IMG/VR virus record: IMGVR_UViG_3300032086_000180
Location: 1 to 35,679 of that record
Origin: a virus
Reading direction: 5' to 3' (one strand)
DNA: 35,679 nt
Within the stretch, counting starts at the first letter, position 1, and each line of letters begins with the position of its first letter. The notes below the pieces were generated by a model. It was not told the DNA's origin. It saw only the letters and a program-made list of their open reading frames with translations, and made no database searches. Both the position numbers and the translations under genes were made by a program. Positions 2,465 to 35,679 of the stretch are shown one piece after another.

Positions 2465-3060
2465 TTAAGTGCTTCCTTAATAGCGTTAGAATATCTAGTG
2501 CCTTTAGTACCAAAGGCGTCACTACCTACCATACCAGTTTTTAACCAGCTATTTGCACCAGACCAACCTTGGTTGTGAGCATAAGCTAAGGCAGATAGTT
2601 TATCTTCTAGAGAAAGGCTTCTATATTTTTTAGATTTAGCCATAAGATAATCATGGTTTTTTACAGTGAAGGCAGCAAATGCTTCTTCTTGTTTTGTCCT
2701 ATCGTTTCTAAAAGCTTCTCTTGATTTAGTATCATGTCCAAGAGAATATCCTAACAGAGTAGCTGCATCTTTTTTAGCAGCCTCGCCCATTTGGTATCTA
2801 CCATCGTAGTGATTTTTATATCCACCTTTTACAGAGTAATCCCCGCCAGATTCTATGTCAGCAATCTTTTCTCTATATATATTCCACATTGATTGGTCTG
2901 CACCAATATTGTCAGACACAAGTGTGTAAGCTACATTAGATACATTCTGAGGTTTTTGTACAAGAGCAGGTTTTTTTAAATCGTCTACATATGTACCTTC
3001 TAAGTCTAGTCCTTTTTTAGGTTCATCCACATATGTACCTTCTAAGTTTAATGATGACAT
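2461..3060 (-). CDS. Lysozyme/lytic transglycosylase-like virion protein
   Basis: About 199 residues from ATG 3060. The fold cues are IESGGDY, YDGRYQMG about 15 residues later, and ALAYAHNQG near the end. These resemble the Glu-Ser-Gly helix and the glycine-rich strand of the lysozyme-like/SLT superfamily, so the Glu of IESGG is the candidate catalytic acid. Two imperfect copies of LEGTYVD lie near the N-terminus. An ATG at 3162 gives a 233 aa form with a Lys-rich start and about 16 hydrophobic residues, a possible signal anchor, but it would overlap the upstream gene by 89 bp. ATG 3060 lies 13 bp after that gene's stop, with AAAGG 10 nt upstream, so I prefer it. The neighbours suggest a virion enzyme that opens the cell wall during DNA entry. 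Confidence 0.75.
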   Translation of the reverse strand: MSSLNLEGTYVDEPKKGLDLEGTYVDDLKKPALVQKPQNVSNVAYTLVSDNIGADQSMWNIYREKIADIESGGDYSVKGGYKNHYDGRYQMGEAAKKDAATLLGYSLGHDTKSREAFRNDRTKQEEAFAAFTVKNHDYLMAKSKKYRSLSLEDKLSALAYAHNQGWSGANSWLKTGMVGSDAFGTKGTRYSNAIKEALK

Positions 3061-3073
3061 GTTTTCTAGGCCT

Positions 3074-4807
3074 TTATTTTTGTTTAATTCTACCGTCTGC
3101 AGGGTTAATAAAGTGAGAACCAGCAGGAAGACTATTATATATTTTTTTAACTTCATCATCATCTAGGCTTTCATCAAAAACATATGGGTTAGCTCTAGTA
3201 TACTGTATCTTTCCCTTCGTGTCAACAGTTTCTTTAGGCGTTGCACTTACTTTAGGTGAGCCATCAGGATTGTATCTATCTTTAGGTGAGCCATCACGGT
3301 TATGTGTTTCACCAAACAGTTCATCCCACTGGCTAGGCTTTAAGTCTCTAGGCACAGGTATCTTGCCAGAAAGAATGTCTTCTTTTTCTTGCCCATCCAT
3401 GCCGGGCCGCCTGATCTCAGAAAACAAACCTGACTGTGGTCTTGGTGGTACACCTACTACTATTGCTTTTCTAGTATCCCCTCCTCGAACCTCTACGTCT
3501 TTTACATAATGTACCTTTTCATCGTAACCTTCTATAGGGGTTTCAGGAAACTCTTCAGTGTCAGAATATTTATCATAAGGATCTACGAAGAACATTTCTT
3601 CCTCAGAATCAAATGGTCTAGGCTGTAACTCACTAGGGGTTTTACCTGTATCACCTATAGTAAATGCACTAGGGTCTAATCTTCCTGCAGTAGCTAAACC
3701 AACTATATACTCATCGTATTCTGATTCATCAATATCACGTCCGTTTTCTGTCATGCTAAGAACGGTATTGTTTTCACCTAGTACGATCTCAATTACCTCT
3801 CCTTTAAACTCCTCACCTTCTTTATTATAGGGTACTCTAATAGTAGTTCCTACGTTTACACCATCCATTTTTATTAGGTTTTTAACTATAAGCTTCTCTA
3901 GTTCTTCTGAGGACTTATAATCGTCTAGCATGGCATAGTATAAGGTGTCTCCTATCTCACCTCGTACATCAATAGAGGTATCTTCCAGAAACTGCAACTG
4001 GAATTTTTTAGCGTATTGATCTACAACACCTAGCTTTCTTTTAAGTCTTTCAGCCTTTATTGCATCGTCTAGTTCTTGACCCTTATACCGTGCTCTAAGA
4101 GATGCTTCTAATGCAGCAGGTAGTTCATCTGCGGACTCAAAGGCATCTCTAAATGCTGGACCTATTTTTGTAGGATCATAATTTGCTGAAGGTCTAAATG
4201 AGAAATACGTACCTGGGTCCATACTTTCGTATGCTTCCTGTCTAGCTATCTCGTTTATATCCATAATAGAGTATCCTTCAAAGTAAGGATCTCTATCCAT
4301 CCTAGCTCTAGCTGCGTCTTTAAGACCCATACCTAGCGCTGTTCTTAGCAAGCCTTGACCTTTAGCTTCATAGCCTCCTAGTGATGGAGATGCTAGTCCT
4401 ATGGAGTTAGCGTAGTGTTCTTCAGGAGTCATTGACGCTGCAGCAAACTCTTCTGGCATATCAATAAAAGTATCTAACTCACTCTCACTAAACGTGTAAG
4501 ACCCCCCAGCGCTGGGCCTCTTCTGTGCTTCTTTTTGTAGAGCTTGTGAAAACTCAAACAAAACTTTTGGACCTGCTGCAATAGCGGCGTTGATGTGTTT
4601 ATCTTTTGCACCAAGCCTTCTAAGCATATTGATCTCTGTCTTAGCTAGATTAACCAGTGCTCTACGTTTACCTATTATAGATTTATTACGTTCAGCCTGT
4701 TCACGCTGTTGATCTTCATAATCCTCTGCATCTTGTATACGCTTTTGGATTTGCTTTGCTTGGTCATCCATAAACGCTGTAGCGAATGCTTTAAAGTTAA
4801 ACGCCAT
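3074..4807 (-). CDS. Putative internal virion protein, 577 aa
   Basis: No family recognised. The first 60 residues are a charged helix rich in Asp/Glu/Gln/Arg (AFMDDQAKQIQKRIQDAEDY), a likely coiled coil. The centre is mixed and acidic, and the protein ends in LPAGSHFINPADGRIKQK, a Pro/Gly-rich tail ending in Lys of the sort often seen at the ends of phage virion proteins. The ATG lies 2 bp after the stop of the upstream 198 aa gene, with AGAGGTG about 8 nt before it. It sits between the membrane protein/wall hydrolase genes and the lysozyme-like gene, so a role in the internal core or ejection complex is the best guess. There is no enzyme motif and no membrane segment. Confidence 0.8.
   Translation of the reverse strand: MAFNFKAFATAFMDDQAKQIQKRIQDAEDYEDQQREQAERNKSIIGKRRALVNLAKTEINMLRRLGAKDKHINAAIAAGPKVLFEFSQALQKEAQKRPSAGGSYTFSESELDTFIDMPEEFAAASMTPEEHYANSIGLASPSLGGYEAKGQGLLRTALGMGLKDAARARMDRDPYFEGYSIMDINEIARQEAYESMDPGTYFSFRPSANYDPTKIGPAFRDAFESADELPAALEASLRARYKGQELDDAIKAERLKRKLGVVDQYAKKFQLQFLEDTSIDVRGEIGDTLYYAMLDDYKSSEELEKLIVKNLIKMDGVNVGTTIRVPYNKEGEEFKGEVIEIVLGENNTVLSMTENGRDIDESEYDEYIVGLATAGRLDPSAFTIGDTGKTPSELQPRPFDSEEEMFFVDPYDKYSDTEEFPETPIEGYDEKVHYVKDVEVRGGDTRKAIVVGVPPRPQSGLFSEIRRPGMDGQEKEDILSGKIPVPRDLKPSQWDELFGETHNRDGSPKDRYNPDGSPKVSATPKETVDTKGKIQYTRANPYVFDESLDDDEVKKIYNSLPAGSHFINPADGRIKQK
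3197..3225 (-). promoter_or_regulatory. Candidate intragenic sigma70 promoter before the lysozyme-like gene
   Basis: On the minus strand TTGACA (3225-3220) is followed after 17 bp by TATACT (3202-3197). The predicted transcript would start near 3190, just before both candidate starts of the lysozyme-like gene. It lies inside the 577 aa structural gene, so a chance match within coding sequence is possible. Confidence 0.35.
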
Positions 4808-22047: not shown

Positions 22048-23109
22048 TTATAGACCAGACGTGTAGATTGCATTAACAAGAGCTTCAGGGCGCAAGATTT
22101 TGCGTCCGTATAGATGCATACCACGAACGATGTCAGCAAAGCTGTCAGGGTCACGATATGTTTCTGTCTTGTTAATTTGCTCAGCAGTAGCTGCTGCAGA
22201 TGAATGTCCAGCAAGCAACACACCGTAGTGTGTAGAACCTGAAGATGTGGTTGAGGTTGGACCATCACCTACTTCAGGAAGGTTGTTAGACATGTAGACT
22301 TTAAAGCCATGAATGTTGTTGAAGATCAACCCGTTCTGCAACCCTGATCCACCGAAGTCTGCGTTCAGAAGACGTGAATCTTCGTCTTTCAGAAGTTCAG
22401 CAAACACGGGGTCAATTATGAGCCAACGATCATTCGTAGAAACATTCTGTTGGTCCAGCTTACGTGACATACGTGCAATAACTTGCATTGGTGTCGCATT
22501 AGCTGTAGTGGTGTTCAACGTGTCTGCACCTGTACGAGGCTTGACAACGATAGAGTTACCACCAGTACCAGCATTAAAGTCAGAAGCGTCTAGCTTCATG
22601 CTTGAAAGCAGTTCATCAGAACCAGCAGTTGATACAGCTTTCGTACCGTTTACGGTAGTGTTAGCTGTATTAGCTTTACCGTGGATAGCTGCTTGCTTGA
22701 AGCCAGCCATATAACCAAGAACATCTTGGTCAAACTGATCAGCCAAACGATAAGCTGCACGGTCAGATGCGATACTTTGGAAGTTCACATGTGAGTGAGC
22801 TTCTTCAATATCGTCAACCTTGAAGGCAAAGTAGTTTGCTTTATCAACGGTCAAAGAAAAATCTTCATCGTCAAGGTCTTGTGGTGTGATCGTCGTGCCA
22901 CGGGCATACGACTTCACGGTGATTTCAGGTTCTTTGATAATTTTAACGGAATCACCCATGTTAGCAATCTCTCCGAAATAATCAGAGTTTGTGATTGCTT
23001 CTACAATAGAGGCCTTGCGGAAGGCAAGTTGTACCTGTTTACTGTAGATTACTGGACTAAAATTACCGTTGGGTAAATTACCATAACCTGACGCTGTTGC
23101 GAAAGCCAT
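22048..23109 (-). CDS. Major capsid protein (HK97 fold expected)
   Basis: 353 residues from ATG 23109 (MAFATASGYGNLPNG). The ATG at 23124 is rejected because its ATGGAGG is itself the Shine-Dalgarno sequence (GGAGG, 8 nt before the second ATG). Diagnostic segments are the N-terminal arm (NGNFSPVIYSKQVQLAFRKA), GDSVKIIKEPEITVKSYARG, DQFDQDVLGYMAG and NDRWLIIDPVFAELLKDEDS, as in coat proteins of marine podoviruses/siphoviruses. It follows the scaffold gene and precedes the decoration protein. Transcription probably starts at its own promoter (23342-23370), with a leader of about 225 nt that carries a hairpin. Confidence 0.9.
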   Translation of the reverse strand: MAFATASGYGNLPNGNFSPVIYSKQVQLAFRKASIVEAITNSDYFGEIANMGDSVKIIKEPEITVKSYARGTTITPQDLDDEDFSLTVDKANYFAFKVDDIEEAHSHVNFQSIASDRAAYRLADQFDQDVLGYMAGFKQAAIHGKANTANTTVNGTKAVSTAGSDELLSSMKLDASDFNAGTGGNSIVVKPRTGADTLNTTTANATPMQVIARMSRKLDQQNVSTNDRWLIIDPVFAELLKDEDSRLLNADFGGSGLQNGLIFNNIHGFKVYMSNNLPEVGDGPTSTTSSGSTHYGVLLAGHSSAAATAEQINKTETYRDPDSFADIVRGMHLYGRKILRPEALVNAIYTSGL

Positions 23110-23196
23110 GATATAATCCTCCATAGATAGTTAGGCTTATTTAGATTTATAAGCTGTAACATCAGATAAGAGGCTGATCGTTCTAGGGTGCGACTT

Positions 23197-23341: not shown

Positions 23342-23370
23342 GTTATAACATAGAGTTTGTGTAATGTCAA
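23342..23370 (-). promoter_or_regulatory. Sigma70 promoter of the capsid operon
   Basis: TTGACA (23370-23365), 17 bp, TATAAC (23347-23342) on the minus strand, with a TGT just before the -10 (TATGTTATAACT, an extended -10). Predicted start is near 23335. It lies in the 255-270 bp gap between scaffold and capsid genes. The same 12-mer TATGTTATAACT recurs before the DUF1127/TerS operon. Confidence 0.7.
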
Positions 23371-29077: not shown

Positions 29078-30529
29078 CTAATATCCAAAGGTTGAGTCTG
29101 CAGCTTGAAAACCTGCATTATGTGTTCTAGGATTAAAATCCCATAAGGAACTTCTAGGTCTTGTCATTATACCGTACCTGATAGCATCGTACAAGTGATC
29201 TTCAGCATTGGTATCTACATCTTCTGGATTTCTTTTATCCAAAGGTATACCAGGTATCTGAGCTACGCAGTTCGTGCAAGTCGAAAAGAACACTAGCCTT
29301 GGCTCCTCAGTGTACTCATCAACTTGCAAGCGGCGGTGAAGCTCGTTTTTACCTGCAACCCTTGAGCCTCTTGAACGGTCTGAAGGCCTCCACCTGCATC
29401 CCTTTGCGTTCATTTGCTCTGCCAAGGAAGGGCCAGTGTCACCTCTTTTGTGCCACAGGGAGCTATCCAACACACCGTACCTTATGCTACCGTCATCCGC
29501 TTCAGCGTCAAGTACCATGTCAGCTAAGTCAGTAGCTGTAACCTTAGAGCAATACAACTCTCTATAAACTACAAGTTGCTCTGTTGGTGTAACTGCAAAC
29601 CAAACAACGCCTGTAAAGCTACCGTAGCCATAATCGCAAGCCCTAAACTTAGTCCAACTCTTAGGTATCTTGTAAGGTTCTACTACGTGTACCTGTCTGT
29701 TAAACTCAGGGAACGCTGCTCCCTCGTTTACATCCCAATTACCTTCTAGTAGTTGCTTACGTTGATGCTCTGGTAGTGACAGAAGCATAGCTTCGTAGTC
29801 ACCACTTTCAGCTAAGTACGGATTATCGAAGAGGCTGGCGGGTATAAACCTTCGCTTGAACAAGGGTTGACCAGCTTTACTATGACCTTTCGGGAAGCGT
29901 AATACCTCACCAGACTCTATGTCCGTTGCCCAGAAAGCCGTATTAGGTGGCGCTGGGTCAATGAACATCTTCTTAACCCAAGCATGTCCAATCCCACCTG
30001 GGTTTGTAGTAGCTCGCATGTACAAACCTAAGTCTTTGTTTGCACTACGTAGACGTGATCTCATGTAATCCCACGCAAAACTGGAAGACCACTGAGTGAG
30101 TTCGTCAAATGCTACGTAGTTAAACGCCTGACCTTGGTAGCGCATAACGTCTGTGTCTCTGTCCAAGTACGACATCCAAAGTGTGCCGCCTCTTGGTGTA
30201 GTCCATTGCGACTTACGCTCAGACCACTTTATTCCTGGTATAGCTTTAGGGTACAACTCTTGGCTTTTCTGTATGAGTTCCCTAAGTTCTTCTGTTGTGT
30301 GTCGAACAAGTAGACCACTGAAATCTGGGTTGTTCATGTTACGTAATGGATCAGCTAGTGTTGCATATGACTTGCCACCACCTGCTGCCCCACCATATAG
30401 AACCTCACGTTCACTTGAAGCTAGGTACTGTGTCTGTGGACCAGGGTTAGGTCTAAAGACAATGTTCTGTACTTCTTCAACGTCATACTCAGGAGGTTTG
30501 ACTGTGGCTGGCTTCGCAGCTTTCGTCAT
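29078..30529 (-). CDS. terL: Terminase large subunit
   Basis: 483 residues from ATG 30529. An upstream ATG (30655) would add 42 Lys/Ser/Thr-rich residues but overlap the upstream gene by 167 bp, so it is less likely. The ATPase domain has Walker A GGAAGGGKS (46-54), Walker B VAFDE (139-143) and a coupling motif ATTNPGG (about 173-179). The nuclease domain has the acidic residues CDYGYG (Asp299), VLDSS (Asp355) and DHLYDAIRYG (Asp444/448). All key residues are present, so it should be a working DNA translocase/nuclease. It binds the portal encoded next. The packaging type cannot be decided from sequence alone. Confidence 0.93.
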   Translation of the reverse strand: MTKAAKPATVKPPEYDVEEVQNIVFRPNPGPQTQYLASSEREVLYGGAAGGGKSYATLADPLRNMNNPDFSGLLVRHTTEELRELIQKSQELYPKAIPGIKWSERKSQWTTPRGGTLWMSYLDRDTDVMRYQGQAFNYVAFDELTQWSSSFAWDYMRSRLRSANKDLGLYMRATTNPGGIGHAWVKKMFIDPAPPNTAFWATDIESGEVLRFPKGHSKAGQPLFKRRFIPASLFDNPYLAESGDYEAMLLSLPEHQRKQLLEGNWDVNEGAAFPEFNRQVHVVEPYKIPKSWTKFRACDYGYGSFTGVVWFAVTPTEQLVVYRELYCSKVTATDLADMVLDAEADDGSIRYGVLDSSLWHKRGDTGPSLAEQMNAKGCRWRPSDRSRGSRVAGKNELHRRLQVDEYTEEPRLVFFSTCTNCVAQIPGIPLDKRNPEDVDTNAEDHLYDAIRYGIMTRPRSSLWDFNPRTHNAGFQAADSTFGY

Positions 30530-30902
30530 CGTCTTCGTAGGCGTAGGTTCCTGTGTAGTTTTTTTCGAGCGCTTCGATCTGTTGTAACGTCTTCTGGAGC
30601 CTTCTGGCGTACTCACGTTTAATTGAAGTAAGTTGCTTTCTTTTTCTTTCGACATCTATACGTTTTCTCAAGCCATCGTGAGTTATCTCTCTGCCTGACT
30701 GTGTAGTCAACCAAGCTGCAACTTGGCGTAAGCTATACTGCTTCAGGTGTTTCTTAGCTAACTCTAAAAGCTCTAACTCCTTTGGTATGGGGTTTAACCA
30801 CTCTTCATCTTCAGGGTCTATCTCGTAACCAAACGGAACGTATCTACTTATTCTTGGGATGCGTAACCATACCTTTACCTTGTACGGTAATTTAGGTAAC
30901 AT
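30489..30902 (-). CDS. Terminase-associated HTH/coiled-coil protein
   Basis: 137 residues from ATG 30902 (MLPKLPYKVKVWL). ATGs at 30950 and 30947 (MLRIRKERPL) are possible but overlap the preceding gene, and no start has a good Shine-Dalgarno sequence. The block RYVPFGYEIDPEDEEWLNPI, then LELAKKHLKQYSLRQVAAWL with ITHDGLRKRID, looks like a helix-turn-helix. Residues 95-120 are a basic coiled coil. A protein of this type precedes TerL in many marine myoviruses and podoviruses, where it is sometimes named small terminase. The C-terminus overlaps the TerL start by 41 bp. It likely takes part in DNA recognition for packaging. Confidence 0.8.
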   Translation of the reverse strand: MLPKLPYKVKVWLRIPRISRYVPFGYEIDPEDEEWLNPIPKELELLELAKKHLKQYSLRQVAAWLTTQSGREITHDGLRKRIDVERKRKQLTSIKREYARRLQKTLQQIEALEKNYTGTYAYEDDDESCEASHSQTS

Positions 30903-30930
30903 CCAGTATTCGTTCTGAAGAGGTCTTTCT

Positions 30931-31311
30931 TTACGAATCCTCAGCATCATCAGCGTTCTTAGGGGGCAGTATGAACAACCCACCCGTTGATTCTACTGCT
31001 ACCCTCTCCGTTTTAACTACACCTGCACGATCAAGTATCTGACCTGCAGCCATCATCTTTTCTTTAACACCTAGCTGGGTAGGATCGTCCAAAGCACTGC
31101 CATATGCAATCGCAGCCTTAGGGCCAATCCTTGCCATGTACGACTTAGTTGCCTCAAATATTTCATCCTTTAAAGCCTCCACTATTGTAGTCGTAGGTGA
31201 GTTATCACTATACCCAGCTAAACGTTTAGCGACAACTACATCACCACCAGCCTCTTCAAAGAGCACTGCCATGAAAGCCTGTTGTTTTTCTGTAAGTTGT
31301 CTTGTACTCAT
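30931..31311 (-). CDS. Terminase small subunit-like protein
   Basis: 126 residues. LTEKQQAFMAVLFEEAGGD, then VVAKRLAGYSDNSPTTTIVE, matches the N-terminal helix-turn-helix of small terminases (T-x-K-Q-x-x-F ... A-x-x-A-G-Y-S). The rest (GPKAAIAYGSALDDPTQLG, KEKMMAAGQILDRAGVVKTE) is the oligomerisation helix region seen in such proteins. It starts one base after the DUF1127 stop (TAAAATG), with GGAAAG serving as ribosome-binding site inside that gene. It would bind the packaging site and recruit TerL. Two candidates for this role (this and the next gene) are encoded. Confidence 0.82.
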   Translation of the reverse strand: MSTRQLTEKQQAFMAVLFEEAGGDVVVAKRLAGYSDNSPTTTIVEALKDEIFEATKSYMARIGPKAAIAYGSALDDPTQLGVKEKMMAAGQILDRAGVVKTERVAVESTGGLFILPPKNADDAEDS

Positions 31312-31312
31312 T

Positions 31313-31462
31313 TTACTTTCCGTATGCTACCCTGTAGATTTCTGATCTGTGGATACCCATATCTTTTAGATCTTTGTCTGACAGGTTCTGAAGTTGCCAG
31401 TAAGCTACACGTCTTTGTTGACTTAGTTTGTAGCCTTCCCACATGTTGTTAAGCCATTTCAT
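31313..31462 (-). CDS. DUF1127-type small protein, 49 aa
   Basis: Frame from ATG 31462 to TAA 31313. Reading in part: MKWLNNMWEGYKLSQQRR, then LSDKDLKDMGIHRSEIYRVA. The second half is the DUF1127 signature (L-S-D-x-x-L-x-D-M-G-I-x-R-S-E-I). AAGGAG lies 8 nt before the ATG. In bacteria, DUF1127 proteins are small, Arg-rich regulators mostly known from Alpha- and Gammaproteobacteria, and some bind RNA and influence metabolism and stress responses. Here it is the first gene of the packaging operon, one base before TerS. Its ribosome-binding site is covered by a potential hairpin (31466-31504). Capture from a host is likely. Confidence 0.88.
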   Translation of the reverse strand: MKWLNNMWEGYKLSQQRRVAYWQLQNLSDKDLKDMGIHRSEIYRVAYGK

Positions 31463-31465
31463 TGC

Positions 31466-31508
31466 ACTATCTCCTTTTTACTGTTGTTGTGCTATGGAGA
31501 TAGTTATA
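31466..31508 (-). promoter_or_regulatory. Hairpin over the DUF1127 ribosome-binding site, overlapping a -10 box
   Basis: A perfect 9-bp inverted repeat: ACTATCTCC and GGAGATAGT on the plus strand (31466-31474 and 31496-31504), 21-nt loop. On the transcript the 3' arm contains the GGAG of the ribosome-binding site. An extended -10 box TGTTATAAC has its TATAAC at 31508-31503, overlapping the 5' arm. No good -35 was found (TACTAA at 17 bp). RNA from this promoter would start near 31496 and lack most of the 5' arm, while read-through RNA would fold. Confidence 0.6.
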
Positions 31509-31542
31509 ACATATGTATGACTAAATTAGTATTGTTATTTAA

Positions 31543-31929
31543 TCATAGCCGCCTTGCAGGAGTGTAATATAGTCTACAAGAAATAGTAGCATCAAAGTTA
31601 TGTGTAGGACTATATCTAAATACTAAAACTTTATCACCTTCATGTAAAAACAAAGGGCCACTACCTATAAACTGTACGTGGTTTAAACCTGGTATAGCTT
31701 GTTGTCCATGTAGAAAATGAAACGTATTGCTGTCTGAATGATAGACTTGTATTCCAATATTAGAAGTTGAATTATCTTCGTTAGCTACCATAAGAAAAAC
31801 TACTTCAGCTTCGTAGCTTAATGGGCAGGTAAACAATAGTGTGGCATTATTAGGATTACTCACTGTACTAGCAGAGCTACCTATTACCTCAGTAAGTTTT
31901 GTTTCTGTTCTAAAGTTAATGCCAGCCAT
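31543..31929 (-). CDS. Small beta-rich protein, 128 aa
   Basis: No family recognised. The protein alternates short hydrophobic and polar stretches: STVSNPNNATLLFTCPLSY, EVVFLMVANEDN, NHVQFIGSGPLFLHEGDKVL, ATISCRLYYTPARRL. This is consistent with a beta-sandwich, as in minor capsid or tail accessory proteins. It has no signal peptide. It is the last gene before the DUF1127 control region, 5 bp downstream of the lysine repeat protein, and has a weak ribosome-binding site. Confidence 0.72.
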   Translation of the reverse strand: MAGINFRTETKLTEVIGSSASTVSNPNNATLLFTCPLSYEAEVVFLMVANEDNSTSNIGIQVYHSDSNTFHFLHGQQAIPGLNHVQFIGSGPLFLHEGDKVLVFRYSPTHNFDATISCRLYYTPARRL

Positions 31930-31934
31930 GTTTG

Positions 31935-32372
31935 TTACTTTTTGTTTTTACGGTTGTCACGCTGTTCTTTTACCATACCACCTAAGTTGTAAGTCATAAC
32001 TTTACCACCCTTAGCGTAACCTTTCTTCTTCATCATACCACCCTTAGCGTAACCTTTCTTCTTCATCATACCACCCTTAGCCATACCCATGCCAGCAGTC
32101 ATACCTCTAGCTGACATCATTCCTTGTGGAGCACGGTTGGCTGATGGACGGTAACGGCTTTGTTCGCCTTCCATAGGCGTTGTAGAGCCACCTAGAGCAT
32201 AACCTTTTTTCTTCATCATACCGCCCTTGGCATAACCTTTTTTCTTCATCATACCGCCCTTGGCATAACCTTTTTTCTTAACTTTACCACCATCCTTCAT
32301 GTACCCCATTTTATTACGTACACCCTTTGGTAGCTTCTTCAAACCCTTTTGGTTTTCTGTAGGCTTCTTCAT
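31935..32372 (-). CDS. Lys/Gly/Tyr repeat protein (KKKGYAKGGMM)
   Basis: 145 residues, extremely basic. The 11-residue unit KKKGYAKGGMM is repeated in two blocks (about 31-61 and 98-122), separated by a Pro/Met/Arg-rich segment (YRPSANRAPQGMM). The same core, G-(Y/F)-A-x-G-G, occurs in the 815 aa virion protein. Such repeats recur in marine phage genomes but have no established role that I know. DNA condensation, capsid-interior binding or a phase-separating linker are all guesses. Within each block the DNA repeats are nearly identical, so copy number probably changes by slippage. Confidence 0.82.
   Translation of the reverse strand: MKKPTENQKGLKKLPKGVRNKMGYMKDGGKVKKKGYAKGGMMKKKGYAKGGMMKKKGYALGGSTTPMEGEQSRYRPSANRAPQGMMSARGMTAGMGMAKGGMMKKKGYAKGGMMKKKGYAKGGKVMTYNLGGMVKEQRDNRKNKK
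32004..32080 (-). repeat. 33-bp repeats encoding KKKGYAKGGMM, block B
   Basis: Two full and one partial 33-bp units, each with ccacccttagcgtaacc on the plus strand. They are identical to each other but use different synonymous codons from the block at 32191-32280, so the blocks evolve separately. Confidence 0.9.
32191..32280 (-). repeat. 33-bp repeats encoding KKKGYAKGGMM, block A
   Basis: Three units, with ccgcccttggcataacc on the plus strand. They are near identical within the block and diverged at third positions from the block at 32004-32080, a pattern of local homogenisation. Confidence 0.9.
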
Positions 32373-32377
32373 CTTCT

Positions 32378-33055
32378 TTAACCCTCGTTATATAGATTGT
32401 TGAACACTCGTTGCGTATCCCATACATACCCTACGTCTTCCTTTGAGTTGTACGTATGTTGGTTAGGCTTGAAGTCAGGAGCACCTTCACCTGTTTCAAA
32501 CCACGCAGGGTGAGTTACTCTCACTCTATTATTGGGTAACGCAACCATGTTACCTGTGTAAGGTCCAGCATCTAGCAGTTCTAAAACGTGTGACTGCTTA
32601 TGTTGTGCTGGGTCATCTGCTACTTCACTATCTGTATAGTCAACTGTAAAGTAATATTTTGCTGGGTAGAACTCCCCGTCAACCTTAGCTATCCAAGGTG
32701 CTGGACTTGCTCGTTCTAACTTATATACGGAATGCCAGTGAGACATACAATCCCAAGGCTGTGCCAAATAAGGTGGTAACTCTTCAGGCCATTCTTCTAA
32801 AGGTGTGTCTGCTACTAAAGCTGTTAGAGGCAACCTAGCCCACATAGCCCCGCCGTGAACGTTCTGTTCTTCTTCCGAAACGTCTGACTCGCACCCTGTA
32901 AAGATAACTTGGAAGCTTAGCGTCCTGTTGGGTAGAGTTGTTACTCCTATCACCATGCAGTGTAGAAACTGGCCTTGATATTCTTCTAAGTTCTTTGTAT
33001 ACTCTCTTCTTACCCATGCTTTAAAATACGGAATACTGCTGGTTAAATAGGGCAT
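32378..33055 (-). CDS. Hypothetical protein, 225 aa
   Basis: No family recognised. It is mixed alpha/beta and Trp/Tyr-rich: YFKAWVRREYTKNLEEYQGQ, FLHCMVIGVTTLPNRTLSFQ, LPPYLAQPWDCMSHWHSVY, GPYTGNMVALPNNRVRVTHP. It has three Cys, and the compact, hydrophobic make-up suggests a globular enzyme or beta-barrel protein. AGAGGTG lies 6 nt before the ATG. It is in the small-gene cluster before the packaging genes, so it could be a virion protein or an early accessory protein. Confidence 0.75.
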   Translation of the reverse strand: MPYLTSSIPYFKAWVRREYTKNLEEYQGQFLHCMVIGVTTLPNRTLSFQVIFTGCESDVSEEEQNVHGGAMWARLPLTALVADTPLEEWPEELPPYLAQPWDCMSHWHSVYKLERASPAPWIAKVDGEFYPAKYYFTVDYTDSEVADDPAQHKQSHVLELLDAGPYTGNMVALPNNRVRVTHPAWFETGEGAPDFKPNQHTYNSKEDVGYVWDTQRVFNNLYNEG

Positions 33056-33076
33056 TTACTACACCTCTTATTATTG

Positions 33077-33298
33077 TTACGCTACTACAAAGTCTACTAA
33101 TTGTCCTTGCAGTATTTTGTTTTGGTTATGGGGGTGGTACGCATAAATGCTTTCGTACCTAAATGCATCTGCTTTTTTATCTACAGACTTATGTGTTTCT
33201 TCTACTATTCTTTTCTTTTCAGTAGGCGCTGGGTTGACTTTATCGAAAGGCATGAAGGGTAATGGTAAGTAGCCTAACAATCCCAAGTCTACGTTCAT
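33077..33298 (-). CDS. Hypothetical protein, 73 aa
   Basis: No family recognised. A hydrophobic Pro-rich start (LGLLGYLPLPFMPFDKVNPA) is followed by a basic helix (EKKRIVEETHKSVDKKADAF) and a short beta-like end. The start overlaps the stop of the preceding gene (TAATG), implying translational coupling. There is no clear membrane segment. Confidence 0.68.
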   Translation of the reverse strand: MNVDLGLLGYLPLPFMPFDKVNPAPTEKKRIVEETHKSVDKKADAFRYESIYAYHPHNQNKILQGQLVDFVVA

Positions 33299-33492
33299 TA
33301 TGTAGATGTTCCTGTTGTAACTTTAAAACAATAAGGTACAGCGTACAAGTTTCTAGAAGCTAGACTTTTCTGTACTTCAGCTACTTCCTCGTTACACGCA
33401 GACTCTTCGTAGAATACTTTTTGTGTGTTTGCGTAAACGATACACGAAACGGCTGCAGGGTTAGCACAGACAAGTATCATAGCAAGCCACAT
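33298..33492 (-). CDS. Small exported Cys-containing protein
   Basis: 64 residues. The first ~20 (MWLAMILVCANPAAVSCIVY) are hydrophobic, lack basic residues, and resemble a signal peptide, with a possible cut after AVSC or YAN. The mature part has two Cys (SACNEEV and PYCFKV) that could form a disulfide in the periplasm. ATG starts 2 bp after the stop of the 82 aa gene. A periplasmic or envelope target is suggested by the leader. The function is unknown. Confidence 0.72.
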   Translation of the reverse strand: MWLAMILVCANPAAVSCIVYANTQKVFYEESACNEEVAEVQKSLASRNLYAVPYCFKVTTGTST

Positions 33493-33494
33493 AG

Positions 33495-33743
33495 TTACTT
33501 TACTTTCCTAAAGGCTTTGGTCTTCTTTGCGATGCTCTTAGGTTGAGCCACAAACTGCTTACCTGCCTTAGTGCCTTGTCGTTTAGCTCTGGTTGTAGCG
33601 GCATACTCACTACTGCTAAGAGACTTAATAGCCGCAGCAGGTAGATACCGCTCACCAGTTTTAGCACTAGGCTTGCCACTCTTAGTACGCCACTTTTGTT
33701 TAGTCCACGCCTTCAGGCTTTTCTGTGATTTAGCAAGAGCCAC
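33495..33743 (-). CDS. DUF5872-like basic protein, 82 aa
   Basis: GTG start at 33743, overlapping the TAG stop of the upstream gene by one base. The block WTKQKWRTKSGKPSAKTGER, followed by YLPAAAIKSLSSSEYAATTR, is a pattern I associate with the DUF5872 group, which occurs in phages and giant viruses. The name is from memory and unverified. It is strongly basic (Lys/Arg about a quarter of residues), so a nucleic acid-binding role is likely. Confidence 0.72.
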   Translation of the reverse strand: MALAKSQKSLKAWTKQKWRTKSGKPSAKTGERYLPAAAIKSLSSSEYAATTRAKRQGTKAGKQFVAQPKSIAKKTKAFRKVK

Positions 33744-33922
33744 TACTTGTAACCCCCACCCTTAGCTTTATATTGCTTAGCTAACATTTGAGCTTTACGG
33801 GCAGACCACTGTCCGGGCTTACCGCCTTTACCACCAGCTTTAATAGAGTTAAATAAACCCTTACGCATGGTAGGCTTAGTGTAGTTACCTGCTTGATTTA
33901 CTTTACTCTTAGGTTTATTCAT
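33743..33922 (-). CDS. Small basic protein, 59 aa
   Basis: ATG at 33922, TAG at 33743-33745. Reading in part: MNKPKSKVNQAGNYTKPTM, then GGKGGKPGQWSARKAQMLAK and YKAKGGGYK at the end. The KPGQWSARKAQxxAKxYK block occurs in other marine phage small proteins and looks nucleic acid-binding. It overlaps the next gene by one base (TAGTG) and begins 4 bp after the stop of a tiny basic gene. The function is unknown. Confidence 0.78.
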   Translation of the reverse strand: MNKPKSKVNQAGNYTKPTMRKGLFNSIKAGGKGGKPGQWSARKAQMLAKQYKAKGGGYK

Positions 33923-33926
33923 AACG

Positions 33927-34058
33927 TTACACTACCAGTTTCATTTTGAAGTCGAGTACTTGTGCCTTCTTTTGAAGGTATCTTTTTTTCTTTAACTTTT
34001 GTATTGGACGTTTGCGCTTGGGCAGCTTCTTACGCCGCACAACCGCTACATTACTCAA
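33927..34058 (-). CDS. Tiny very basic protein, 43 aa, TTG start
   Basis: The open frame from TTG 34058 to TAA 33927 exactly fills the gap between two genes. Residues run MSNVAVVRRKKLPKRKRP, then a Lys-rich helix ending DFKMKLVV; nearly half are Lys or Arg. AAAGGGG lies about 11 nt before the TTG. A GTG at codon 7 is an alternative start. Tight packing with both neighbours supports it being a gene. RNA/DNA binding is the obvious guess. Confidence 0.55.
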   Translation of the reverse strand: MSNVAVVRRKKLPKRKRPIQKLKKKRYLQKKAQVLDFKMKLVV

Positions 34059-34063
34059 CTATA

Positions 34064-34375
34064 TCAAGACCCCTTTACCCACTTCTTGCTAGGCGACTTA
34101 GTTTTACTTGGTGACCACTTCGCCTTGTTAGCCCAATAAGCTGCACTCATTGGACCCTTCGCTATGTTACTAGCGTGGCGTGACTTAAAGGCCTCACGTT
34201 GTCCTGCAGTCTGGTTCGTCTTTACACCTTGCTGTCCAAAACGTATAGTCTTTATCTGATCACCCTTCTTAGCGACTACAATGTGCGACTTTGTAGGGTG
34301 ACCTGGGGTACGCTTGGGTTTGTTATACCCAGATACACCTGCACGTTTTAACCTTGGGTCTTCTGCTCTAGCCAT
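34064..34375 (-). CDS. Basic conserved phage protein, 103 aa
   Basis: DPRLKRAGVSGYNKPKRTPG, HPTKSHIVVAKKGDQIKTIR and FGQQGVKTN form the conserved core, and the tail SAAYWANKAKW with Lys/Ser repeats follows. I recognise this protein type from phages of marine and alphaproteobacterial hosts, always without a known function. It is highly basic and may bind nucleic acid or pack inside the head. It overlaps the preceding 85 aa gene by 8 bp. Confidence 0.8.
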   Translation of the reverse strand: MARAEDPRLKRAGVSGYNKPKRTPGHPTKSHIVVAKKGDQIKTIRFGQQGVKTNQTAGQREAFKSRHASNIAKGPMSAAYWANKAKWSPSKTKSPSKKWVKGS

Positions 34376-34625
34376 ACTCTCGTTCTCGCTCTGGGTCTAA
34401 CACTTCGTGTGACTCTAAGTATCCCTCTAAGTACATAGCTCTCTCTACGTGATCTAAAGTGTACCACTGTCCAGTGCGGTTATACAAAGCTTCACGTACA
34501 TAAAACACATCTGACTTAGGTATATGTACTTTATGTAAAGCACGAGGGTTATTATCCGCTATAGCACTGTAAAAGTCTTCTATTACGGTTTCACTTGCAT
34601 ATAGTTGTACAGGTTTTTTACGCAT
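34368..34625 (-). CDS. Conserved small phage protein, 85 aa
   Basis: ATG 34625 (MRKKPVQLYASETVIEDFY). A TTG two codons upstream is also possible. It is acidic to neutral, with segments SAIADNNPRALHKVHIPKSD, VFYVREALYNRTGQWYTLDH and ERAMYLEGYLESHEVL, suggesting a small helical fold. It has no Shine-Dalgarno sequence, so initiation may depend on the structured leader directly upstream (34652-34746). It is the first gene behind the promoter at 34791-34819. I have seen this type in other marine phages without a function. Confidence 0.78.
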   Translation of the reverse strand: MRKKPVQLYASETVIEDFYSAIADNNPRALHKVHIPKSDVFYVREALYNRTGQWYTLDHVERAMYLEGYLESHEVLDPEREREYG

Positions 34626-34651
34626 TGTCAAGAGTTAATTGAAATAAAATA

Positions 34652-34746
34652 CGTGTTATAGGAATGTATGTACATATAGGGTAGTGAGGAGGGAGATACA
34701 GGAGTGAGGTGACACTACATATACGTAGATTACACCCTATAACACG
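34652..34746 (-). ncRNA. Long stem-loop leader or small RNA
   Basis: The minus-strand RNA can form an 11-bp stem (34746-34736 with 34662-34652, perfect), an 8-bp stem (TACGTATA with TATATGTA, one G-U pair), and a 6-bp stem (GTAGTG with CACTAC), with small internal loops and a 26-nt pyrimidine-rich apical loop. The G-U pair becomes an A-C mismatch on the plus strand, so the fold fits the minus-strand RNA. It starts about 38 nt after the predicted transcription start and is followed by TATTTTATTT. It could be a 5' leader, a riboregulator or a short RNA. Confidence 0.55.
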
Positions 34747-34790
34747 CTAGTAGTAACTTTATAGTTATACTTTTTGTAGTTACTTATGTT

Positions 34791-34819
34791 ATAGTAGACT
34801 ATTTTTAGTTACTTGTCAA
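34791..34819 (-). promoter_or_regulatory. Promoter for the rightmost operon
   Basis: TTGACA (34819-34814), 17 bp, TACTAT (34796-34791) on the minus strand: perfect -35, 4 of 6 at -10. Predicted start is near 34784. A second TTGACA at 34996-34991 has only a poor -10 (AAAACT, 17 bp). Confidence 0.5.
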
Positions 34820-34852
34820 TAGTTATTTTATAAAAAGAGTATATTTTTTTGT

Positions 34853-34948
34853 AAGTTTAACTTTAAGTTTAACTATCCTAAGTCCAATATTCTATAGTTA
34901 CTATATATATTAGTCTATTTTTATAGTTTTAACTTTAAAGTTTAACTT
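34853..34948. repeat. Iteron-like AGTTTAAC repeats
   Basis: AAGTTTAAC occurs twice in 34853-34873, and TTTTAAC plus AAGTTTAAC in 34925-34948, in AT-rich DNA directly upstream of the promoter. The units are close to their own reverse complement when paired, so they could be operators or part of a replication origin. Confidence 0.5.
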
Positions 34949-35177
34949 AGGGCTGCTACTGCTACGCAGTTTTACACATATTTACGTGCTTGTCAATACA
35001 AAATCGTACATTGTTACATAAAAAGTGAACATATTGTAACACTTTGTAACAAAACGTGATTAAGATTAACTGGTGTGTGCTTCTTTGTGTACGACTCTTT
35101 TGAAAAACCCCGTGTGTTGCAGAGCATGTATATATAACGGTATATCCCCCCGGTGGCCCTCGCCCCCCGTGCTCAAC

Positions 35178-35203
35178 CTATAGGCGAAAATCGCTCCTTA
35201 TAG
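35178..35203. other. Hairpin in a GC-rich island
   Basis: CTATA...TATAG and inner GCGA/TCGC close an AAA loop (35184-35194), with a small internal bulge. A second, weaker hairpin GTTGCG...CGTCAAC follows at 35203-35222. Together with the C-rich run at 35148-35168 they form a structured GC island in otherwise AT-rich DNA. Confidence 0.45.
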
Positions 35204-35255
35204 TTGCGCTGCGCCCGTCAACTAGCCTTAAAAGTGTAGACTCAAAGGTTTTTCT

Positions 35256-35351
35256 ATGGGTAAGTCATTGAAAATACTACATAAAGAGACTGATACATTA
35301 TCAGTATCAACAAAAAAAGCACTATGTGAAGGTGTAAAACTGACTGACTAG
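35256..35351 (+). CDS. Possible tiny plus-strand gene, 31 aa
   Basis: ATG 35256 with AAAGG 7 nt upstream. The product starts MGKSLKILHKETDTLSV and ends VKLTD. Its stop lies in a hairpin (AAACTGACT 35337-35345 with AGTCGGTTT 35350-35358). It is the only plausible plus-strand gene of the window, perhaps the first divergent (early) gene. Evidence is thin: length and codons give no strong support. Confidence 0.25.
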   Translation: MGKSLKILHKETDTLSVSTKKALCEGVKLTD

Positions 35352-35679
35352 TCGGTTTATCAATAGTGGATGCACAACTATAAAGTGTAAAAACCTATTT
35401 TATATTTATAATGTATACACACGAAAAACACCCCATCCCCCACTTTTTTTGGTTCACATGCATTTTTTTGCTTGTGTCCGGTTTTATTCTGTGCAACGGT
35501 TAGAACATGGAAAGCAGAACACTGTGAAACACTCGAAAGTTTAAGTTTCCGACATGACGCATCCCGCAAGGCCTAGCAATCAAGGGGGCCACAAAGACAG
35601 ACTAAAAAAGACTTGACTACCTAGACGACCAAATGTAAGACTGAATACACAAGCCCTAGAGTAAAGGGAAAAAGACACA

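Follow-up and report, generated by a model that had tools for sequence, protein, structure and literature searches.

A conserved hairpin overlapping a predicted promoter suggests start-site-dependent translation of a DUF1127 gene in HMO-2011-type phages

Background

In a phage genome fragment, the Shine-Dalgarno (SD) sequence of a small gene encoding a DUF1127 protein forms part of a perfect inverted repeat, the other arm of which runs into a promoter-like box. This arrangement raises the question of whether the gene can be translated from any RNA that contains it, or only from RNA that begins at its own promoter. The principle of such a dependence is known from phage T4. Long early transcripts of T4 gene e mask the SD in a helix, with an effect of ~100-fold, and soc, 49 and I-TevI are described as further T4 cases of an inhibitory structure (PMC3014915); a figure legend in the same paper mentions T4-type phages that possess gene e without the apparent structure. 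For I-TevI, I-TevII, I-TevIII, segB and Aeh1 mobE, a hairpin at the ribosome-binding site has been reported on transcripts from upstream early or middle promoters, and the late promoters of homing endonuclease genes are placed such that late RNA includes too little of the sequence for the hairpin to form (PMC2988022).

The HMO-2011-type group of marine phages has been called dominant and broadly distributed, in a paper whose main text does not contain the word promoter (PMC9038755). Among titles and abstract openings of the literature on phage DUF1127, HMO-2011-type promoters, roseophages, and read-through and SD masking, with few subscription journals covered, we found no paper on the element described here. 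The literature surveyed by title and abstract opening likewise contained no infection transcriptome for these roseophages; a paper on the transcriptome of a pelagiphage and SAR11 exists (PMC12753301). A first-pass annotation of the locus, made from the sequence, had likened it to T4 gene e. Therein it was proposed that transcripts entering from upstream genes are folded shut, while those from the gene's own promoter are translated. We analyzed the locus and its relatives computationally with this proposal in mind.

Results and discussion

The locus and its hairpin

The DNA analyzed (hereafter the window) is a linear virus record of 35,679 bases. Its TerL shares 83% identity with the TerL of roseophage CRP-2 and 75% with that of HMO-2011; the values for 11 CRP phages are 60-83%, in all cases with ~90% of the query covered. 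Judged by this protein, the window represents part of the genome of an HMO-2011-type phage, near the roseophages. The DUF1127 protein scores 32.7 bits against the Pfam gathering threshold of 23.3, which makes it a member of the family, and its gene starts with the ATG at 31462-31460 on the minus strand. Pfam and PHROG searches with TerS gave no match, and its tblastn matches are the annotated terminase small subunits of ctYwJ313, HTVC033P and HTVC115P. The gene that precedes DUF1127 (31543-31929) stops ~80 nt ahead of the DUF1127 start, upstream of the 5' arm. An intrinsic terminator was ruled out, as no terminator-like site is listed on the minus strand in 30500-35679, including the region between this gene and DUF1127. 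In CRP-2 and CRP-3 the replication genes point rightward and the structural genes leftward, and the DUF1127 gene of CRP-2 (gp65) is part of the leftward unit, where it follows eight small annotated genes (gp66-gp73).

Table 1. Features of the DUF1127 locus in the window
Feature	Position	Strand	Basis
Extended -10 promoter-like box TGTTATAAC, no -35 seen	31503..31511	-	sequence, conservation in relatives
5' arm ACTATCTCC of the putative SD-masking hairpin	31496..31504	-	sequence, folding, covariation in relatives
Loop, 21 nt	31475..31495	-	sequence
3' arm GGAGATAGT, holding the GGAG Shine-Dalgarno sequence	31466..31474	-	sequence, folding
DUF1127 gene, 49 aa, presumed target of the switch	31313..31462	-	Pfam PF06568, E 6e-8
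TerS gene	30931..31311	-	ATG 1 nt past the DUF1127 stop
TerL gene	29078..30655	-	Pfam Terminase_6N and PHROG 979
Upstream gene, 128 aa, possible source of read-through	31543..31929	-	ORF list

Direct reading confirmed the perfect 9-bp inverted repeat that hides the GGAG, with 9 of 9 pairs and no mismatch between 31504-31496 and 31474-31466, as well as the overlap of its 5' arm with the -10 box by two bases (31504-31503). No -35 hexamer is seen before TGTTATAAC, and a sigma-70 scan did not report this site; the scan demands a final T in the -10 and could not list TATAAC, so that the identity of the -10 rests on conservation. Judged from spacing only, with 6-8 nt past the hexamer, transcription would begin at ~31494-31498, at the border of the arm and the loop, and nearly all of the 5' arm would thus be absent from the resulting RNA, which agrees with the earlier claim that transcripts from the gene's own promoter lack most of this arm. 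The predicted leader of such an RNA is ~34 nt long.

In folding predictions for isolated RNA at 37 °C, the hairpin alone has an energy of -11.6 kcal/mol (z -3.97, with none of 200 shuffles equally stable) and the 81-nt leader -16.6 kcal/mol (z -2.58, 2 of 200), and in RNA from 31495 the SD is open (-3.4 kcal/mol, z +1.23). A Watson-Crick run of at least 9 over the GGAG arises by chance in 67 of 20,000 shuffled leaders (0.34%), so that the window hairpin taken alone is only moderately significant; a single hairpin is suggestive and does not suffice for the claim, and it is the relatives that make the case convincing. As a separate observation, GCAC in the loop (31489-31492, minus strand) can pair with GUGC just ahead of the AUG (31464-31467, minus strand); this pairing recurs in many leaders of the group A set, and a small alternative stem might form in the short RNA.

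Related loci

Two scans of viral contigs (the best 80 matches of each) and 15 named phage stretches yielded 173 loci, or 174 with the window; two contigs are present twice under different locus identifiers (L076/L098 and L078/L099). DUF1127 was found in 136 of the 174 loci with the window protein as a query and in 150 with a second query added, which is no estimate of frequency, because 80 loci were chosen for encoding DUF1127. In 149 of the 150 DUF1127 loci, the gene is followed on the same strand by a TerS match at a distance of up to 3.8 kb, and the only locus without it (L144) has just 41 nt of right flank. The remaining 24 of the 174 loci have no DUF1127, and in seven of these 24 a TerS match is missing and the upstream sequence is short. 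DUF1127 was not found in HMO-2011, ctYwJ313, HTVC033P and some contigs (e.g. L008, L070, L074), with more than 1 kb before TerS examined, nor in HTVC115P within ~0.6 kb before TerS. In HMO-2011 there is also no TATAA[CT] box within 2 kb before terS.

For the analysis of SD opening, 38 copies among 136 leaders were skipped and 8 leaders were dropped (7 short ones, and L127 without a -10 that fits the pattern), leaving 90 distinct leaders. The first run used the upstream of two -10 boxes in L077, L025, L042 and L165, and the repeat used the downstream one. All counts and energies given below are taken over related sequences, which are not independent events.

Opening of the Shine-Dalgarno sequence

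Over the 90 leaders, the mean cost of opening the SD is 8.1 kcal/mol in read-through RNA, as opposed to 1.5 kcal/mol in RNA from the predicted start, or 1.2 kcal/mol with the downstream-most -10; shuffling restricted to the sequence ahead of the start gives a mean of 2.4 kcal/mol. The difference between read-through and promoter-started RNA reaches at least 3 kcal/mol in 76 of the 90 leaders, in 78 if the -10 nearest to the gene is used, and in 79 for start distances of 4, 5 or 8 nt, and the effect is stable in the relatives across gaps of 4-8 nt between the -10 and the start. Among other genes of the same loci, with a start assumed 22 nt before the SD, such a difference was found in 9 of 300; these are 300 of 413 genes, at least one of which (in L161) is CRP-1's own DUF1127 gene. 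As to the promoter-like box, TATAA[CT] is present in 88 of the 90 DUF1127 leaders vs 14 of the 300 other genes, and TGnTATAA[CT] in 66 of 90 vs 2 of 300. If the whole region from the SD to the AUG is considered and 13 more diverged phage leaders are added, 95 of 103 leaders pass, as compared to 33 of 543 other genes. Altogether, roughly 90% of the related leaders in our set show the effect.

We considered whether the leader might have been inherited from bacterial DUF1127 genes. Of 80 bacterial loci, 77 had a usable leader, and among these the SD difference occurs in 2 and TATAA[CT] in 1; the idea was rejected on these counts, which apply to a set with mostly rhizobial titles, none of them naming Rhodobacterales, the lineage of the phages' hosts. 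A thin survey for the same arrangement elsewhere, based on few boxes, revealed boxes followed by an SD and ATG twice in the window, three times in bases 1-50000 of CRP-2 and once in bases 1-50000 of CRP-3, and the effect was present only at the DUF1127 boxes of the window and CRP-3 (the DUF1127 gene of CRP-2 lies outside the scanned stretch).

Order of the arm, the box and the upstream gene

At least half of the bases that pair with the SD lie strictly upstream of the predicted start in 87 of the 90 leaders, all of them do in 42, and none in 3. The arm is located on or just past the -10 in 71 of the 90 leaders, and in 16 the SD partner lies wholly upstream of the -10, at roughly -8, -14 to -16, -19 and -21. 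In a TerS tree, which covers 88 of the 90 leaders and is based on few columns, the latter class requires at least two changes and falls within a single deep branch, which it shares with members in which the arm overlaps the box. Thus, judged by the positions of the partner bases, the arm varies in sequence and location, yet it stays on the side that would be missing from promoter-started RNA, and nothing points more strongly to the mechanism, in our opinion, than this conserved order of elements. An upstream ORF was identified in 84 leaders and terminates ahead of the 5' arm in 81 of them, while in the other three it extends 4-10 nt into the arm (no upstream ORF could be identified in six of the 90); ribosomes translating it would therefore rarely melt the hairpin.

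Covariation of the arms

Compensatory changes of the arms in related phages, proposed in the first-pass annotation as a check, came out in its favor. For 35 representatives with less than 75% identity, the summed duplex energy of each leader's own arms is -399.7, compared to a mean of -290.1 (sd 13.4) for permuted partners, and none of 10,000 permutations gave a value as low; in individual leaders the own partner is the best one in only 7 of the 35, so that it is the sum that is extreme. An alignment was made of 36 of the 55 group A leaders, after removal of 6 near-copies, 5 leaders whose arm precedes the -10 and 8 of a weak kind, a choice that favors the structure. Here 22 cells are changed on both sides of a pair, a number reached in none of 500 shuffles, and sliding the partner reduces the pairing from 89% to 40-57%. 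Changes on both sides are seen in 6 of 9 pairs, which does not beat the shuffles (73 of 500 reach it), and the count of further pair types in this alignment is no better than in shuffles (386 of 500).

Watson-Crick runs of at least 9 over the SD occur in 24 of 81 leaders vs 0.12% of shuffles. This version of the test was adopted because the one with G-U pairs is not discriminating, as 45% of shuffles reach a run of at least 7. The helices are mostly short, with a median of 14 pairs when bulges are allowed and up to 32 pairs in some leaders, and the span they enclose ranges from 3 to 41 nt.

Exceptions

Relatives that retain the gene and lose the pairing, which the first-pass annotation had regarded as the outcome that would speak against it, were found as a minority only. 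In three of the 90 leaders (L029, L054, L067) the SD has no upstream partner, yet all three pass on the wider region from the SD to the AUG; the SD difference is below 3 kcal/mol in 12 of 90, and the wider initiation region fails in 8 of 103. The subgroup in which the DUF1127 protein starts with MEL is mixed, with no effect in CRP-603 and L045, little in L021, L023 and L046, and a positive result in CRP-2, L026 and L028. Among the cultured roseophages, 9 of 11 reach the SD difference of 3 kcal/mol, with CRP-13 (2.9) and CRP-603 (1.8) falling short. In CRP-603 (L162), an 8-base match ATGTTCAT/ATGAACAT noticed by eye near 2478 reaches the start codon and not the SD; it is a possible variant lock, for which the energy measure over the SD-to-AUG region gives no support.

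Two boxes similar to TGnTATAACTA, ~15 nt apart, precede DUF1127 in L082, L087, L101, L119, L077, L025 and L079, and tandem boxes are also present in CRP-1 (L161, 869-889) and CRP-345 (L164, 1340-1360). If the upstream box of such a pair is used, the resulting RNA would contain the whole hairpin and be silent, which counts against the proposed switch.

The proposed switch and its alternatives

Comparison of the sequences shows the elements, their conserved order, the pairing and its covariation. The element is real and conserved, and it most likely restricts translation of DUF1127 to RNA from its own predicted promoter. We favor, with a probability of about 0.8, the interpretation that the DUF1127 leader is a start-site-dependent translation switch. 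RNA entering from upstream genes, which presumably exists, would contain both arms and fold the SD, and often the start region as well, into a stable hairpin that should block ribosomes, and DUF1127 would hardly be translated from it. On the other hand, RNA begun at the extended -10, which lies on or just downstream of the 5' arm and probably acts as a promoter with a start ~6-7 nt downstream, would lack that arm, and its SD would be open for translation. The promoter of DUF1127 may be used later than those upstream.

The inverted repeat could also be read as a DNA operator that overlaps the -10, with a repressor, perhaps DUF1127 itself, bound to the half-sites. Small phage proteins often autoregulate, and the arm lies on or just past the -10 in most relatives (71 of 90). 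However, an operator recognized by a protein is expected to keep its sequence and spacing, while the sequence, register and spacing of the arms vary widely between clades (the span of the SD helix being 3-41 nt), the 5' arm lies upstream of the -10 in 16 of 90 leaders, and the feature that recurs is the SD within one arm; we regard an operator as quite improbable. A hairpin that functions in the main mRNA independently of the start site, as a thermosensor, a riboswitch or a protein-binding site, is an unlikely explanation too, even if the tandem upstream -10 boxes of some relatives would yield RNA with the whole hairpin, because 87 of 90 leaders have half or more of the SD partner upstream of the start predicted from the nearest -10, and RNA begun there has an almost free SD (mean opening cost 1.2 kcal/mol).

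Cleavage of the read-through hairpin by RNase III or RNase E, separating the messages, would be compatible with masking of the SD and could be suggested by the long helices of some leaders (up to 32 pairs), but the typical helix is short (median 14 pairs, bulges allowed), and such a processing signal leaves unexplained both the presence of the SD in one arm and its position relative to the -10, which makes it very improbable. Finally, leader-mediated control has been published for the same protein family, namely attenuation of transcription dependent on a uORF in the DUF1127 gene of Sinorhizobium meliloti (PMC12218461). The predicted leader of ~34 nt has no room for such a uORF and no terminator-like site separates the element from the gene, so that, unless transcription were to begin far upstream, the locus lacks what this type of attenuation requires, and we give it practically no weight.

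Comparison with known systems

The start-site-dependent switch resembles that of T4 gene e in that the SD is masked in a helix of a long transcript, here a stable helix deduced from predicted folds and covariation, and in that the gene's own transcript would lack the 5' strand of this helix (87 of 90 leaders, with predicted -10 and start). The parallel drawn by the first-pass annotation is thus well supported by computation, with the contrast in SD opening, the covariation and the order of elements all pointing the same way, and given the reviewed T4 cases the claim that the element works like its T4 counterparts is a strong one. The promoters are different: T4 relies on its own late promoter TATAAATA with gp55, while the box here is TGTTATAACT, and the TATAA[CT] found in 88 of 90 relatives is mostly TG-extended, so that it does not fall into the T4 late-promoter class. 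The phages and the gene are different as well. Unlike in the T4-type phages listed as having gene e but no apparent structure, the pairing is maintained here throughout a diverse group, in which the arms covary and have been relocated; and whereas the T4 homing endonuclease genes are mobile intruders, DUF1127 lies upstream of terS on the same strand in all 149 loci that have both. Bacterial DUF1127 proteins, such as CcaF1 of Rhodobacter sphaeroides and those of A. tumefaciens and S. meliloti, belong to the same family, but an SD difference was seen in only 2 of 77 bacterial leaders, most of them rhizobial. Hence, the principle is known from T4, and what is new is the phage group, the type of promoter, the target gene and the breadth. 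If correct, this type of switch, known chiefly from T4-like phages, would here be conserved to an unusually wide extent. It would provide a prediction of the transcription start and the timing for DUF1127, a gene of unknown function, and mark it as one that these phages avoid translating from read-through RNA, and because its arms covary, the switch lends itself to a simple reporter assay.

As to why the lock would be maintained, CcaF1 is an RNA-binding DUF1127 protein (PMC10253847). We tentatively speculate that DUF1127 protein made prematurely could be harmful to the phages, probably because it acts on RNA turnover as CcaF1 does, and that selection might have kept the lock on this one gene, and rebuilt it at new arm positions, across the roseophages; DUF1127 itself would then be a timed switch from early to late messages. 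At present we would consider this scenario possible rather than likely. The first-pass annotation had extended the timing to TerS. In the window this is plausible, since the TerS ATG follows the DUF1127 stop by 1 nt and translational coupling could operate, but it does not hold in general: DUF1127 and TerS are within 30 nt of each other in only 27 of 135 loci, and in CRP-1 and CRP-345 the box and hairpin precede DUF1127 1.6-2.1 kb upstream of TerS. The box and hairpin thus go with DUF1127, and control of TerS timing by the switch would be local at best.

Further observations on neighboring genes

Upstream of DUF1127 and in the same direction, the window encodes a 145-aa ORF of Lys/Gly-rich repeats around KKKGYAKGGMM (31935-32372, minus strand), and a 225-aa protein (32378-33055, minus strand) matches PHROG 3704 (ferredoxin; category moron, auxiliary metabolic gene and host takeover). 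Most CRP records label DUF1127 as a hypothetical protein, and in the deposited CRP-13 record (L165) its gene (3023-3187) lacks an annotation and extends into the terminase small subunit annotated there. A near-consensus sigma-70 promoter, TTGACA-17-TATAAC, is located at 23342-23370 of the window (minus strand), in the gap before ORF 22048-23124, a part of which matches the putative coat protein gene of CRP-1.
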